The notes beneath the pieces are model-generated. The model worked only from the letters and a program-made list of their open reading frames with translations, was not told the origin of the DNA and did no database searches. From assembly GCA_019245455.1 (NCBI GenBank), contig JAFARM010000232.1:1-11768 (forward strand): a stretch of 11,768 nt of DNA. Reading direction: 5' to 3'. This DNA is from Sphingomonadaceae bacterium. Its GTDB lineage: Bacteria > Pseudomonadota > Alphaproteobacteria > Sphingomonadales > Sphingomonadaceae. The translations under genes and the position numbers were made by a program. Positions 4,365 to 11,768 of the stretch are shown here, in pieces. Within the stretch, counting starts at the first letter, position 1; the number at the start of each line of letters is the position of its first letter.

Positions 4365-4391
4365 GTCCGTCATCCCCGCGAAAGCGGGGAC
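4365..4391. repeat. REP-like single unit, CCCCGC-stem type
   Basis: A 27-base unit beginning 16 bases after the ugd stop codon. It has the GTCAT head at 4369-4373, stem CCCCGC/GCGGGG (4374-4379 with 4384-4389) and loop GAAA. An identical 27-base copy starts at 4401, giving a direct repeat with a 36-base period. The hairpin is strong but lacks a following T-run, so any role in ending or protecting the ugd transcript is inference. Confidence 0.8.
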
Positions 4392-4402
4392 GCCCGCCAC
4401 GT

Positions 4403-4516
4403 CCGTCATCCCCGCGAAAGCGGGGACCCATCTCCTGCCGTCCGCCCGTAGCGACGAAGCGCGTCGCATCCTGGCGAATAGCGGGAGATGGGTCCCCGCT
4501 TTCGCGAGGATGACGG
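4403..4516. repeat. REP-like inverted pair, CCCCGC-stem type
   Basis: Two 33-base arms, 4403-4435 and 4484-4516, are reverse complements with one mismatch (a T for C in the stem of the right copy) and enclose 48 bases. Each arm carries the GTCAT head, the CCCCGC/GCGGGG stem, a GAAA loop, and an inner extension reading ACCCATCTCC on the left. The same arm sequence recurs inside pbpC at 11445-11520. The segment lies between ugd and the tRNA gene, and I see no gene in it. The 114-base length and paired arrangement fit a small non-autonomous repeat element, probably mobilised in trans. Confidence 0.85.
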
Positions 4517-7700: not shown

Positions 7701-10544
7701 GTCACGGCGAAGGACGCCGCCGGCCACGTCAGCCGCGCCACCCAGTCGCTGTGGCTGGCGGGCGACGACGACTGGTGGTTCGGCGGCGACAACGGCGACC
7801 GCATGGACGTCGTCCCCGAAGCCCCCGAGTACCCGGCCGGCGGCGTCGCCAGGTTCCAGGTGCGGATGCCGTTCCGCGAGGCGACCGCGCTCGTCAGCGT
7901 GCTGCGCGACGGCGTCATCGACAGCTTTGTCACGACGCTGTCGGGCAAGGAGCCGGTGGTCGCGGTGCAGCTGAAGCGCGGCTACGCCCCCGACGTCTAT
8001 GTCTCGGTGCTGGCGGTGCGCGGGCGGGTGGCGGGCTGGCGGCTGTGGCTCGCCGACCTCGCCCGGCGCTGGAACCTGCCGTGGCTGAGCCGCGACGCGG
8101 CGTACCCGACCGCGCTCGTCGACCTCGCCAAGCCGTCGTACCGCTTCGGCCTCGCCAAGATCCGCGTCGGCTGGGACGACCACCGGCTCGGCGTCCGCGT
8201 CGCCACCGACAGCCCGACCTATGCCGTGCGCAAGACGGCGCAGGCGACCGTCACCGTCACCCCGCCCAGGGGCCGCGCCCTGCCGCCGGGAAGCGAGATC
8301 GCCTTTGCCGCGATCGACGAGGCGCTGCTCCAGCTCCACGGCAACGACAGCTGGGACGTGCTGACGGCGATGATGGCCGACCGGCCGCTGTCGGTCTTTA
8401 CCTCGACGGCGCAGACGCAGGTCGTCGGCAAGCGCCACTATGGCCGCAAGGCGCTGGCTGCGGGCGGCGGCGGCGGCGAGGGCGCGGGCGGGACGGTGCG
8501 GCGCGACTTCAACCCGCTGCTGCTGTGGCGCGGGCGCGTTCCGCTCGACGTTCAGGGGCGAGCGAGCCTGCCGGTGACGATGAACGATTCGCTTTCGGCC
8601 TTCCGCCTCGTCGCGGTGGCGACGGCGGGGTCCGACCTGTTCGGCACGGGGGCGGTGACGGTGCGGACGACGCAGGACCTGCAGCTGCTCGCCGGCATCC
8701 CGCCGCTGGTCCGGGAGGGCGATCACTATACAGCGACGGTGCTGGCGCGGAACGCGACGGCCAAGGCGATGCGGGTCAGCCTGAGCGGCACCGCCGGTGC
8801 GGCGGCGCTGGCGCCGCGTATCGTCGACATACCGGCCGGCGAGGCGACGACCGTCGCCTGGGACGTCGCCGCGCCGGCGGAGGGCAAGATCCAGTGGGCC
8901 ATCGCCGCGCGCGCGACGAGCGGCGCGACCGACGCGGTCCAGGTGACGCAGGCGGTCGCGCCTGCCGTGCCGGTCGAGACGCTGCAGGCGACCCTGGTTC
9001 AGGTCGCGCCGCAGCAGTCGTTCCCCGTCGCCCTGCCGGCAACCGCGCTCCCCGGGCGCGGCGGCGTCGATGTCGCCCTCAGCCGCTCGCTCGGCGGGTC
9101 GCTGCCCGGGGTGCGCGCCTACATGGCCGCCTATCCCTACGACTGCATCGAGCAGCGGCTGTCGGTGGCGGTCGCGGCCGGCGACCGCGCGCGGTGGGAC
9201 GCGGCCGCCGCCCTTCTGCCGGCCTATCTCGACCGCGACGGCCTCGTCCGCTTCTTCCCCGCCGACTGGATCGCCGGCGACGATTCGCTGACGGCGTACC
9301 TGCTGCGCCTGTCCGCCGACAGCGGCTGGCCGCTGCCCGCCGACGTCAAGGCGAAGATGGTCGCCGGCCTGACCGGCTTCGTCGGCGGCCACGTCGCGCG
9401 GCCGCACGATAACGTGCTGGTCGTCGAGAAGGGCAAGGGCATCGTCGGTACGGCCAGCTTCACCGGCGAGGGCGCGTCGCGGCGGCTGGCGGCGATCGCC
9501 GGGCTGATGAGCGCGAACGCGGCGACGCCGGCGATGGTCGAGCCGATTTCGGTCACGCCCGACGCGTGGGACACGGCGACGCTGATCGACTGGCTGACCG
9601 TGCTGCGCCTGCCCGGCATCCCCGACGCCGAGGGCAAACGCGCGCAGGCGGAGACCGTGCTGCGCGCGCGGCTCGACCTGCAGGGGACGCGGCTGTCGAT
9701 CACCCGCGCCGACGACGCGTGGCAGCTGCTCGGCTCGCGCGACCTGACGGCGGCGCGGCTGCTGCAGGCGATCGTCGCGCTGCCCGACTGGCGCGCCGAC
9801 GCGCCGCGCATCGCCCGCGGGCTGATGCTCGACCAGAGCCGCGGCCACTGGGACACGACACCGGCGAACGCGGTCGGCACGCTGGCGATGCGGGCCTTCT
9901 CGGCGCGGTTCGAGGCGACGCCGGTCGCGGGGACGACGACGGCGACGCTGGGCGGCGCGCGCCACGTCTTCGACTGGAGCACGACACCGCCGCCAGCGAC
10001 GCTCGCCTGGCCGCCGGCCGCCGCGTCGCTGACGCTGACCCATGCCGGCGCGGGGGCACCGTGGGCGATCGTCACCAGCCGGGCCGCCGTGCCGCTGACC
10101 GCGCCGTTCAGCAGCGGCTTCGCCGTCCGCCGCGCCGTGTCGGCGATGAGCCAGGCGGTCCCCGGCCGCTGGAGCCGCGGCGACGTGATGAAGGTCCACC
10201 TCGAGGTGACGCCGCGCGCGCCGCTGGCGTGGGTCGTCGTCAACGACCCCGTGCCGGCGGGCGCAACTGTGCTCGGCGGCTCGCTCGGCGGCCGCAGCGA
10301 CATCCTTGCCGCCGGCGCGACGGCGGGCGTCCAGCCGACCTTCGTCGAGCGGCGGACCGAGGCCGTCCACGCCCATTACGAGGCGGTGACGCGGGCGACG
10401 ATCGCCTATGACTATACGCTGCGGCTGAACAGCGCCGGCACCTTCCGCCTGCCGCCGACACGCGTCGAGGCGCTGTATTCGCCCGAGATGATGGCGCTGG
10501 TGCCGAACGCGCCGCTGACGGTGGCGGCGGCCCCGGCGCGGTGA
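4755..10544 (+). CDS. Bacterial alpha-2-macroglobulin with thioester
   Basis: A protein of about 1929 residues of the bacterial alpha-2-macroglobulin family (YfhM/ECAM type), thought to trap attacking proteases in the periplasm. An N-terminal signal segment (basic RFMQRWR, hydrophobic AGLIVVVALG, cleavage near ARA) has no lipobox Cys, so a soluble protein rather than the lipoprotein seen in E. coli is likely. Ig-like macroglobulin domains follow from about residue 35; FDRTLLRAGETVHMKHVIR (about 644-662) marks the MG2-type domain. A Gly-rich flexible stretch at 1230-1250 lies where the protease bait region should be, followed by the conserved FNPLLLWRG and NDSLSAFRLVAVAT segments. The thioester motif CIEQ is intact (Cys1464, Gln1467; bases 9144-9155), preceded by AAYPYD; the usual form is CLEQ. 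The receptor-like C-terminal domain has VVNDPVPAGA. At about 1930 residues it is longer than E. coli YfhM (about 1650). ATG 4755 is preferred; TTG 4731 and ATG 4767 are alternatives. It overlaps pbpC by four bases. Confidence 0.95.
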   Translation: MLRFMQRWRAGLIVVVALGTARAGSGPAPAVAAFSPAGSVERVEQIKVRFTTPMVAFGDPRLPAPIAGTCSEGATGRWVDAQSYTIDLAQPLAGGRRCRYALVPGLKDAAGARLAPARFAFATGGPNIRVALPADGRTIEEDQVFLLALNAAPTAASLAAHAACAIDGVGEAVPLDILPDATRAKIVASAGSDYATRNFLQKAGQVAPNPEWSEQPQPKAVVVAAQCRRTLPSGGRVSLVWGAGIATADGLATQRPARLDFKIRPAFVARLECSRANPAAACSPIEPISVRFTGQVPVALARQVRLVDAAGKDAATVPFKPHVQTVDELTFKGPFPERARLRVLIPANLTDDAGRPLANAARFPLDTATADAPPLIKFAGTFGIVEAKEGGVLPVTVRAVEPAIAGKDAKVVGGPIGGRDVVVADDATIAQWLRTLDKAEERTHDEEPIAGSDDTKWIETTRSTPLIRANAPARGLTIRRQDARAFEVVGIPLKGNGFHVVELASPLLGKALLGRGGTRYVAAGALVTDMAVHFQWGHGRSLAWVTHLSDATPVAGARIAVSDSCSGRLLATAVTDSAGRAAIRDGLPEPTEADSCDYGERPLMVSARTADDFSFTLTTWSKGIAPSDFSIYGGDAERTAYHTIFDRTLLRAGETVHMKHVIRARTDAGFAPAELPSDPTVVIRHLASDQTYALDLKLGRDGIGETAWAVPAAAALGEYSVEIGERGATERHTSGTFTVEEFRLPTIRARVAGPAKPQVAPSAVPVDLSLAYLAGGAAAHAPVKLRTMVAPRDLEIADYPKFSFTGEDIVPGIVRLDGADEPAAAAPTRAQVVPVTLSAGGTARVVVDRLPPVTVPSTLSLEMDYDDANGEVATAKGSVSLDPAAVRVGIAKDGWIMKADAAHLQVVALDLANRPVAGQHVDVRLFSRETYSYRKRLIGGFYAYDNSRETKALGRGCSGATDDRGLFRCTLDAGVSGEAIALVTAKDAAGHVSRATQSLWLAGDDDWWFGGDNGDRMDVVPEAPEYPAGGVARFQVRMPFREATALVSVLRDGVIDSFVTTLSGKEPVVAVQLKRGYAPDVYVSVLAVRGRVAGWRLWLADLARRWNLPWLSRDAAYPTALVDLAKPSYRFGLAKIRVGWDDHRLGVRVATDSPTYAVRKTAQATVTVTPPRGRALPPGSEIAFAAIDEALLQLHGNDSWDVLTAMMADRPLSVFTSTAQTQVVGKRHYGRKALAAGGGGGEGAGGTVRRDFNPLLLWRGRVPLDVQGRASLPVTMNDSLSAFRLVAVATAGSDLFGTGAVTVRTTQDLQLLAGIPPLVREGDHYTATVLARNATAKAMRVSLSGTAGAAALAPRIVDIPAGEATTVAWDVAAPAEGKIQWAIAARATSGATDAVQVTQAVAPAVPVETLQATLVQVAPQQSFPVALPATALPGRGGVDVALSRSLGGSLPGVRAYMAAYPYDCIEQRLSVAVAAGDRARWDAAAALLPAYLDRDGLVRFFPADWIAGDDSLTAYLLRLSADSGWPLPADVKAKMVAGLTGFVGGHVARPHDNVLVVEKGKGIVGTASFTGEGASRRLAAIAGLMSANAATPAMVEPISVTPDAWDTATLIDWLTVLRLPGIPDAEGKRAQAETVLRARLDLQGTRLSITRADDAWQLLGSRDLTAARLLQAIVALPDWRADAPRIARGLMLDQSRGHWDTTPANAVGTLAMRAFSARFEATPVAGTTTATLGGARHVFDWSTTPPPATLAWPPAAASLTLTHAGAGAPWAIVTSRAAVPLTAPFSSGFAVRRAVSAMSQAVPGRWSRGDVMKVHLEVTPRAPLAWVVVNDPVPAGATVLGGSLGGRSDILAAGATAGVQPTFVERRTEAVHAHYEAVTRATIAYDYTLRLNSAGTFRLPPTRVEALYSPEMMALVPNAPLTVAAAPAR

Positions 10545-11768
10545 GCGGGGCGGCGCGCGAGGGGCCCCCACCCCGGCCCTCCCCGCTCTCCGCTTCGCGG
10601 GGGGGGAGGGAGAAGGAAGGGCCTCCCTCCCCCCCCGATGCGAAGCATCGGAGAGCGGGGAGGGCCGGGGTGGGGGTTCTTGCCGCCGTCATCCTCGTCG
10701 CGGTCCTCGTCCTCGCCACCACGCCGCCCGACCCGCCGTCGTTCGCCGCCGTGCGCGCCGGGTGGCGGTCGTCGGAGGCGCGGCTGCTCGCGCGCGACGG
10801 GCAGGTGCTCGATATCGTCCGCGCCGATCCCCGCGTCCGCCGGCTCGACTGGGTGCCGCTCGGCGGCGTGTCGCCGGCGTTCGTCACCGCGGCGGTCGCG
10901 AGCGAGGACAAGCGCTTCGCCTTCCATCACGGCGTCGACTGGCGCGGCGTCGGCGGGGCGATCCGCGACCGGCTGCACGGGCGCCGCGGTCGCGGCGCGA
11001 GCACGATCACGATGCAGCTCGCCGGGCTGCTGGCGGGGAACCGCGGCGGCGGCCGCTCGTGGCTGGCCAAGATCGAGCAGGCGCGCGCCGCCCTTGCCAT
11101 CGAGCGCCGCTGGACCAAGGCCGAGATCCTCGAGGCATGGGTCAACCTGCTGCCGTTCCGCGGCGACCACGTCGGCATCGACGCCGCCGCGCGCGCGCTC
11201 GCGGGGAAGCCGCCCGCCGCGCTCGACGCGACCGAGGCGCGCGTCCTCGTCAGCCTGCTCCCCGCGCCGACTGCGAGCCCGGGGCGCGTCGCGGCGCGCG
11301 CCTGCCGGACGAGCGCGCTGCCATGCGCCCGCCTGGAGCTGCGTACCGCCGAGATGCTGGCGACGCGCCAGCCGCTGCCCGACCCCGGCCTTGCGCCGCA
11401 GGTCGCCGCCCGGCTGATGGCCAGGGGCTGTTCGAAAATTGCTCCTGTCATCCCCGCGAATGCGGGGACCCACCTCCCACGGCTGGAGGAGATAGGTCCC
11501 CGCTTTCGCGGGGATGACAGGGTTGGAAACGCCGTCGCAGCGCCGTCATGCCTCATCCGCACCACGCTCGACGCCGACCTGCAGGCGTTCGTCGCCACGA
11601 CGCTGCGGCAGCAGCTCGCCGCCCTTGCCGGGCGCAACGCCCGCGACGGCGCGGCGATCGTCGTCGACAATGCCAGCGGTGACATCCTCGCCTATGTCGG
11701 CTCGGCCGGGCCCGGGTCGACGAGCGGCGCGGTCGATGGCGCGGCGAGCCCGCGGCAGGCGGGGTCGA
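10541..11768 (+). CDS. pbpC: Penicillin-binding protein 1C (3' end outside window)
   Basis: The frame is open from GTG 10541 to the window end (409 codons). The product is a bifunctional peptidoglycan synthase anchored in the inner membrane: a GT51 glycosyltransferase followed by a transpeptidase domain. A membrane segment (GVLAAVILVAVLVLATT) lies near residues 45-61. GT51 motifs are present: EDKRFAFHHGVD with catalytic Glu122, GASTITMQLAG (152-162), and IEQARAALAIERRWTKAEIL. The linker segment LAPQVAARLMA is normally followed closely by IRTTLDADLQ, which opens the transpeptidase half; here about 35 residues intervene, mostly encoded by a palindromic repeat. VVDNASGDILAYVG follows, then the window ends before the SxxK serine. 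GTG 10541 overlaps the upstream TGA, suggesting translational coupling to the macroglobulin, the known yfhM-pbpC pairing. The first 43 codons are almost all repeat sequence, so GTG 10670 is a real alternative start. No stop or frameshift is visible. Confidence 0.9.
   Translation, partial: MSGAAREGPPPRPSPLSASRGGREKEGPPSPPDAKHRRAGRAGVGVLAAVILVAVLVLATTPPDPPSFAAVRAGWRSSEARLLARDGQVLDIVRADPRVRRLDWVPLGGVSPAFVTAAVASEDKRFAFHHGVDWRGVGGAIRDRLHGRRGRGASTITMQLAGLLAGNRGGGRSWLAKIEQARAALAIERRWTKAEILEAWVNLLPFRGDHVGIDAAARALAGKPPAALDATEARVLVSLLPAPTASPGRVAARACRTSALPCARLELRTAEMLATRQPLPDPGLAPQVAARLMARGCSKIAPVIPANAGTHLPRLEEIGPRFRGDDRVGNAVAAPSCLIRTTLDADLQAFVATTLRQQLAALAGRNARDGAAIVVDNASGDILAYVGSAGPGSTSGAVDGAASPRQAGS
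10565..10676. repeat. 112-bp nested palindromic element at the 5' end of pbpC
   Basis: Perfect 28-base arms at 10565-10592 and 10649-10676 enclose a second perfect 15-base inverted repeat (10598-10612 with 10623-10637) that contains an 8-base G run and its C complement. A side hairpin, GATGC-GAA-GCATC, lies at 10637-10649. The whole can fold as one long stem with a short side hairpin. It starts 20 bases after the macroglobulin stop and ends at the first codons of the PBP1C membrane segment. From memory, translations of such elements (PHPGPP-like peptides) recur in many proteobacterial genomes, which marks it as a dispersed repeat and not part of the original gene. It has no sequence in common with the GTCAT-headed repeats in this window. 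Confidence 0.85.
10657..10672 (+). promoter_or_regulatory. Alternative ribosome binding site and GTG start for pbpC, inside the repeat
   Basis: GGGGAGGG (10657-10664) lies five bases before an in-frame GTG at 10670-10672. Both belong to the right arm of the 112-bp palindrome. Starting here would give a short cytoplasmic tail and a membrane segment almost at the N-terminus. Whether this or GTG 10541 is used cannot be told from sequence alone, and the site is sequestered if the palindrome folds in the mRNA. Confidence 0.4.
11445..11520. repeat. REP-like inverted pair inserted in frame in pbpC
   Basis: Two 33-base arms, 11445-11477 and 11488-11520, are reverse complements with three mismatches and enclose a 10-base loop. 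They carry the same GTCAT head, CCCCGC/GCGGGG stem and inner ACC-ATCTCC-type extension as the pair at 4403-4516, so they are the same family in a shorter form. The pbpC frame is identical on both sides and is open across the element, which encodes about residues 302-327, including VIPANAG and GPRFRGDD. The other two forward frames contain a stop within the element (TAG in one, TGA in the other). The insertion point is the linker between the glycosyltransferase and transpeptidase domains. Confidence 0.92.

Follow-up and report, generated by a model that had tools for sequence, protein, structure and literature searches.

A CGTC-type REP dimer apparently read in frame within the PBP1C gene of a Sphingomonadaceae bacterium

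The pbpC gene of a Sphingomonadaceae bacterium has a palindromic repeat wholly within its reading frame, which raises the question of whether the repeat is an insertion that is read into PBP1C and, if so, how the gene can carry it. The locus is at the end of the window, a stretch of 11768 bp that is one whole contig (C318) of assembly G000 (2.65 Mb in 430 contigs, 95.2% complete). pbpC is the last gene on the contig and follows a bacterial alpha-2-macroglobulin gene. The longest pbpC open reading frame starts with a GTG codon that overlaps the stop codon of the upstream gene; an alternative GTG is at position 10670, and the database protein of this contig (P0001, 366 aa) has a length that fits the second start. 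Homologues of the encoded protein include those of Sandarakinorhabdus, Polymorphobacter and Sphingomonas (protein search, among the best 120 of 1347 hits). Within the window Rfam at gathering thresholds detects only a tRNA. The positions of the features are listed in Table 1.

Table 1. Features of the pbpC locus and related repeats in the window
Feature	Positions	Strand	Basis or remark
pbpC (PBP1C), 5′ part only	10541..11768	+	runs off contig
GT51 transglycosylase domain (PF00912)	10832..11281	+	residues 98–247, E 1.5e-39
Second palindromic repeat family, 53-nt arms, in frame, N-terminal end of longest pbpC open reading frame	10565..10676	.
72-bp inverted dimer, CGTC-type REP, in frame in pbpC, putatively read as VIPANAGTHLPRLEEIGPRFRGDD	11447..11518	+
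Left arm of the dimer, tagged end outermost	11444..11477	+	inverted repeat I6
Right arm of the dimer, inverted	11488..11521	-	inverted repeat I6
Non-repeat sequence before the element, limits approximate, mostly absent from relatives	11417..11446	+
Non-repeat sequence after the element, limits approximate, mostly absent from relatives	11519..11557	+
Intergenic cluster, three arms of the same CGTC-type REP family	4369..4514	.	repeat comparison

The element in pbpC consists of two arms of 34 nt each, which are 91% complementary and 10 nt apart. An earlier note on this DNA had described it as a 76-bp inverted pair of the same family as the intergenic cluster, with one frame maintained before and after it and a single stop-free forward frame. 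The family relationship is borne out by the arms, which match those of the cluster by 89–97% (D4 94%, D19 91%, I5 97%, I7 89%); the core however is 72 bp in length. The frame is open from the GT51 domain across the element and into IRTTLDADLQ, the latter aligning with the PBP1C family, and in the pbpC copy forward frame 0 is open, frame 1 has a TAG and frame 2 a TGA, which is as had been proposed. GC by codon position is coding-like on either side of the element, and an alignment with the family shows that conserved PBP1C residues are kept on both sides. We infer from this open frame that the element is translated as part of PBP1C. The AlphaFold model matches PBP structures, and most of the glycosyltransferase domain is modeled with confidence; pLDDT is below 50 for residues 297–335, which are the inserted linker, in a model that is also poor elsewhere, notably in the truncated second domain of PBP1C. 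The RNA of the element is predicted to fold into a hairpin of very high stability (-66.4 kcal/mol, z -8.5), and such a hairpin could hinder translation, a possible cost of carrying the repeat.

Between the anchors VAARL and TTLD the window PBP1C displays a linker of 53 residues, as opposed to a modal length of 14. The homologues compared are the best 120 of 1347 hits less the window's own protein, i.e. 119 sequences of up to 72% identity by BLASTP. The repeat peptide is present in 0 of these 119, and their linkers are 12–15 residues long in 116, 18 in two and 35 in one. Among these best hits the peptide is thus not an ancient trait of the family, and linker length is conserved, contrary to the description of this linker as variable in the earlier note. 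Judged from the alignment, the segment is an insertion of 39 residues, of which 24 are encoded by the repeat and about 15 belong neither to the repeat nor to the family. The original estimate of about 25 added residues agrees with the repeat-encoded portion and falls short of the full extension. The homologue with the 35-residue linker, P0014, has the additional residues at the same place and contains CRPADPVRPASAGMAGRKGCSSS there; this may be a repeat that has decayed, or a separate insertion.

Five genus relatives were examined for an uninterrupted gene, which the earlier note had suggested as a check. In G001 and G005 the pbpC protein matches both flanks and the middle segment is missing; G003 has a 5′ fragment of pbpC only, and G002 and G004 show more distant PBP hits only. 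A scan of genome contigs for close relatives gave five loci, the best with 54% identity, and no close empty site. The nearest empty pbpC sites are too distant for exact junctions to be read from them. The extent of the repeat itself is clearer. Its length of about 72 bp is matched by dozens of copies in G000, and with a query of 156 bases, in which the element occupies bases 43–114, matches of other copies span at most bases 29–129, i.e. they extend no more than about 15 bases beyond the pbpC element. No other match of the DNA that encodes the approximately 15 flanking residues was found in G000. At the valS and metH sites, as in pbpC, about 15–18 non-repeat residues are found beside the 24 that are repeat-encoded.

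The repeat is abundant in G000. The arm pattern, with three or fewer mismatches allowed, matches 166 times on the forward and 164 times on the reverse strand, whereas a reversed control pattern gives no match; the 330 matches are therefore far beyond chance. A 31-base arm occurs 81 times without mismatch, and 40 copies of the 72-bp form were counted, seven of them in-gene copies and 33 others. CGTC REPs, as described by Di Nocera et al. (2013, PMC3733652), are found mainly in alphaproteobacteria including sphingomonads and are mostly dimers, and for the CGTC-1 type that text defines an 8-bp stem in which the first and second pairs are almost invariably A-T. The pbpC element has TGTC tags, TGTC and CCTC being accepted variants, at both outer ends (11446–11449 and, in reverse, 11516–11519), 4-base loops (GAAT in the left arm and GAAA in the right) and, where the CGTC-1 tail is mostly CCA, a CCA after the left stem and a CTA after the right. 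The stem ATCCCCGC/GCGGGGAC is complementary at 7 of 8 positions, with T-A as second pair and an A.C mismatch at the first. The element also has the inverted-dimer organization of CGTC-1, with the ‘HH’ label of that paper left unmatched to an orientation. By sequence features, i.e. tag, loop, tail and dimer form, the repeat fits the CGTC-type REPs and appears closest to CGTC-1, from which the first stem pair deviates. In another family of the order (G037, G043 and G049) many arms have GGGGAT and thus the full 8-bp stem. At 2173–2264 of the window, between two genes, an inverted pair recognized by eye has a CGTC-like tag and a different stem (ATGCTGGC...GCCAGCAT); it is perhaps a further type of CGTC REP.

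A RAYT was considered as the mover of the repeat and rejected, since two models, PF01797 and the REP-transposase model NF047646, each found none in the six genus genomes, which include G000 (95% complete) and G005 (100%). The Y1 transposase domain PF01797 was found in 8 of 40 genomes overall, none of them among these six. With respect to RAYT-associated REPINs, the repeat has neither a cognate RAYT nor the GTAG tag, its tags being TGTC.

The search for other intragenic copies, also suggested in the earlier note, covered 105 distinct clusters in 80 stretches of G000 together with the window, representing 231 of the 330 arms (70%) at three or fewer mismatches; 84 of the 105 are simple inverted pairs. 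Eleven clusters, in ten genes, are in frame by a stop-free frame and coding-like sequence on both sides. By Pfam the genes are metH, coaBC, putA, dnaX, xseA, valS, ligD (with two copies), carB, mutY and pbpC, so that besides pbpC nine genes hold a further ten copies in frame. Seven of the eleven pass stricter thresholds, and the copies in dnaX and mutY, one of those in ligD and the window's pbpC copy were accepted by a looser test. Sixteen of the 80 stretches had been picked from peptide hits, which favors the VIPA frame, and the dnaX copy came that way. The in-gene share of 11 of 105 appears to be far below that expected from gene density.

Empty sites are seen in several of these proteins. 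Alignments with PDB chains are interrupted where the segment is inserted in valS, metH, coaBC and xseA; in putA the net gain over the PDB relative is small, so that the empty site is less clear, and in dnaX the insertion lies past the part covered by the PDB alignment. Uninterrupted relatives were aligned for valS, metH and the ligD linkers, while carB, mutY and dnaX stand without such an alignment. valS is without the element in G004 (87% identity, about 41 residues shorter) and also in G001, G003 and G005; metH is without it in G003 and G005 (about 42 residues shorter) and in G002, which has a different linker. It had been proposed that the pbpC insertion is tolerated as it falls between domains. 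The position between the PBP1C domains is as stated, but such a position is not required, given that in valS, metH, xseA, carB and mutY the copy falls within a Pfam domain match and splits it.

Six of the 105 clusters have coding sequence on either side that is on the same strand and in different phases. These were considered as possible broken genes and rejected, each being flanked by two different genes according to Pfam: gmk/aldehyde dehydrogenase, M16 peptidase/deacetylase-like, two transhydrogenase genes, nusG/L11, two histidine biosynthesis genes, and ribD/lumazine-binding. Four same-frame hits (L118, L147, L148 and L171) were likewise rejected as in-gene copies, with stop codons separating two frames at the element. 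The remaining 84 clusters, with weak coding signal on one or both sides, a short flank, or divergent, are outside the broken-gene check. An antisense open reading frame of dnaX has no Pfam match. In the ligD of G000 (L156), the linker before the ligase domain has PLPEREGPGVGG and PPTPNPSRKRE adjoining the CGTC copy; these peptides resemble the translation of another repeat family, so that two kinds of repeat may be present in this linker.

Use of frame in these genes is uneven. The 33 other 72-bp copies provide 66 readings, one for each strand; of these, 63 are open in frame 0, 59 in frame 1 and none in frame 2. The peptide of frame 0 is VIPAxAGTHLP...EMGPRFRGDD and that of frame 1 is SSPRKRGPIS...RWVPAFAGM; frame 2 terminates at a stop codon. 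All 11 in-gene copies have the downstream arm in the EMGPRFRGDD frame (variants include EIGPRFRGDD and EMGPDFRRDD) and the upstream arm as VIPAxAG in seven and as a sequence similar to RHPRESG in four of the 11, and the hydrophobic SSPRKRG/RWVPAFAGM frame, which is nearly as open, is used by none of them. For the seven 72-bp in-gene copies the chance of always having frame 0 over frame 1 is about 0.01, by a post-hoc test and with the dnaX copy guided by its peptide. Mean mismatches to the consensus of 60 positions are 1.9 in the in-gene copies (n=7) and 1.6 in the others (n=33); the in-gene copies are no more diverged than the others. The pbpC element has 2 mismatches at these 60 positions. 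The earlier suggestion of a recent insertion is upheld only in a relative sense, by this low count and by the in-gene copies being no more diverged than the 33 others.

Copies are also present in genes of the relatives, namely in the ligD of G005 and G002, the dnaX of G001 and G002, and the feoB of G002. These five were found by peptide search, in stretches with a coding-like frame across the repeat, and are outside the frame count. By alignment the ligD copies of G005 and G002 are in the same two linkers as those of G000, one in each, and the linker without a copy in either genome is an empty site for the other. The dnaX copies of G001 and G002 are in the same linker as that of G000. Copies in a shared linker are either inherited or repeatedly inserted.

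The 5′ end of pbpC displays repeats as well. The second palindromic family has 136 matches in G000, both strands of one place being counted apart, and its edge within pbpC offers the GTG at 10670, which is preceded by GGAGG. Given this alternative start, the N-terminal repeat parts are possibly, but not necessarily, translated. At the same pbpC site G003 (L039) has a similar palindrome, unlike the CGTC type. The start of pbpC in G005 and the stop codon of the upstream gene overlap, and in G001 (L032 from 1545) a CGTC-type copy follows directly after the pbpC overlap, its second arm being diverged. The G001 copy is in the hydrophobic frame, SSPRTRGPIS...KWIPALVG, and leads into a membrane segment. 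Protein P0009 starts with the peptide VIPAQAG...ACAGMT, and P0005 starts with MLAFAGMT. In relatives the repeat at the pbpC start appears, in the hydrophobic frame, to supply a cytoplasmic tail and the beginning of a membrane helix.

These observations are very probably explained by insertion of a CGTC-type REP dimer into the PBP1C linker in this lineage, with the repeat spreading selfishly and with harmless, frame-open copies being kept. A non-autonomous palindromic repeat would have inserted between the glycosyltransferase and transpeptidase domains, its length of 72 bp and its one open frame keeping pbpC readable. The ribosome would then make a hydrophilic segment of 24 residues that may loop out in disordered form. 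Not being a gene, the repeat must be moved by something else, presumably by an activity other than a RAYT. Insertion would be random, selection removing most insertions into coding sequence and leaving frame-open copies with a harmless peptide; both the neutrality of the repeat and its way of movement are inferred. Among the points against the insertion reading are that pbpC is represented here by its 5′ part only, that the stable hairpin could hinder translation and that the approximately 15 residues beside the element are without a donor match in G000.

A stronger proposal is that the repeat has become adapted to live inside genes. Of two open frames, its consensus would maintain the one that encodes a hydrophilic, linker-compatible peptide, and the repeat would colonize linkers and loops genus-wide and return to ligD and dnaX, carried by an unrecognized mover that is not a RAYT. 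This is unlikely; if true, housekeeping proteins have been colonized in a genus that is not obligately intracellular.

Decay of pbpC in this lineage, such that the repeat persists in a gene that no longer matters, is quite unlikely. PBP1C is dispensable in some bacteria, which is compatible with decay, as is the presence of two repeat families within the open reading frame. The C-terminal half of the gene was not found in the G000 assembly when the C-terminal half of the G005 protein was used as query, the only two hits (34 and 36% identity) being in other PBP-like frames. The contig however simply ends within the gene, and the open frame, coding-like GC and conserved residues on both sides of the element do not suggest decay; moreover, the same type of insertion is present in the housekeeping genes valS, dnaX and carB.

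It is very unlikely that the insertion is functional, with the protein or its translation being adjusted by the inserted peptide or by the hairpin in the mRNA. The single frame of all downstream arms, the copies of relatives in the same ligD and dnaX linkers and the stability of the hairpin would be in keeping with a function. Yet the targets are unrelated enzymes, most of which differ between the species examined, the in-gene copies are as diverged as the others, and filtering of harmful frames accounts for the bias without a benefit.

The fragmentation of G000 into 430 contigs, and the tendency of assemblers to err at repeats, bring up an assembly artefact in which reads were misjoined at a repeat of hundreds of copies. 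This is highly improbable: the two flanks are parts of one gene, correctly ordered and in frame, as is also seen in nine other genes, and a 72-bp repeat is shorter than common sequencing reads. Assembly error is also argued against by G005, which is 100% complete in three contigs and whose ligD carries an insertion of this kind. That the long linker is ancestral, with the repeat-like sequence there by chance or copied out of the gene, has a negligible probability, since the 35-residue linker of P0014 at the same place is the one point for it and it is already contradicted by the short linkers of nearly all homologues among the best hits and by the match of the segment to dozens of copies over about 72 bp.

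Insertion of the repeat followed by retention of tolerated copies, the reading preferred here, has wider implications. Mobile palindromes are apparently read into protein in a sphingomonad-like bacterium, even in the genes for valyl-tRNA synthetase (valS), the clamp-loader subunit DnaX and carbamoyl-phosphate synthetase, and such copies are natural tests of where proteins tolerate insertions. The question of how CGTC REPs multiply without a RAYT is sharpened. For annotation, long linkers with VIPAxAGTH...MGPRxRGDD can be taken as repeat-derived.

Compared with known systems, the element is close to published ones. The earlier note regarded Rickettsia palindromic elements (RPE) as the precedent, and this is supported in that CGTC-1 repeats of R. 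conorii are equated with RPE-6 in PMC3733652. The element resembles RPE (Ogata et al. 2000, via PMC2229807 and PMC3733652) as a palindrome that is in frame in conserved genes, and it conforms to the description of a coding palindrome as being in frame and absent from homologues. It differs in having a sphingomonad-like host that is not obligately intracellular, the comparison with RPE being by description and not by sequence. According to the review by Delihas (PMC2229807), 19 reading frames have an RPE inserted in frame; a guanylate kinase that carries one is active, with its substrate affinity changed. Yersinia YPAL/RU-2 (PMC2229807) and Wolbachia WPE (PMC3733652) are similar by description, being short mobile repeats read with host genes, and YPAL supplies part of a signal peptide as well (PMC2229807); these have different names and are different families. 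With REPIN/RAYT systems (GTAG REPs) the repeat shares inverted REP dimers in hundreds of copies, but it has a CGTC-type tag and no RAYT in the six genus genomes.

The closest system is CGTC-1 as described in PMC3733652. Common to both are TGTC/CGTC-tagged ends, a 4-base loop, a CCA tail on one arm, dimers, units in genes and the lack of a transposase, the text of that paper reporting that no transposase gene was found for CGTC REPs; the first stem pair, A.C in the G000 arms and not A-T, is the difference. According to the same text some CGTC REP units are intragenic and encode 20–30 amino acids, in genes that include those for DNA repair and tRNA synthetases, and flexible linkers or loops are suggested as the reason for tolerance. 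The novelty implied by the earlier note is thus limited, CGTC REPs in genes having been reported in 2013; PBP1C itself is unnamed in the main text of PMC3733652, in which ‘penicillin’ occurs 0 times and whose gene list is in Additional file 3, and no report of REPs inside PBP1C was found in the open-licence literature. To the intragenic CGTC REPs already published there, the pbpC case adds PBP1C, the extent to which one genome is loaded with copies, the bias in frame use and the presence of copies in the same linkers of relatives.
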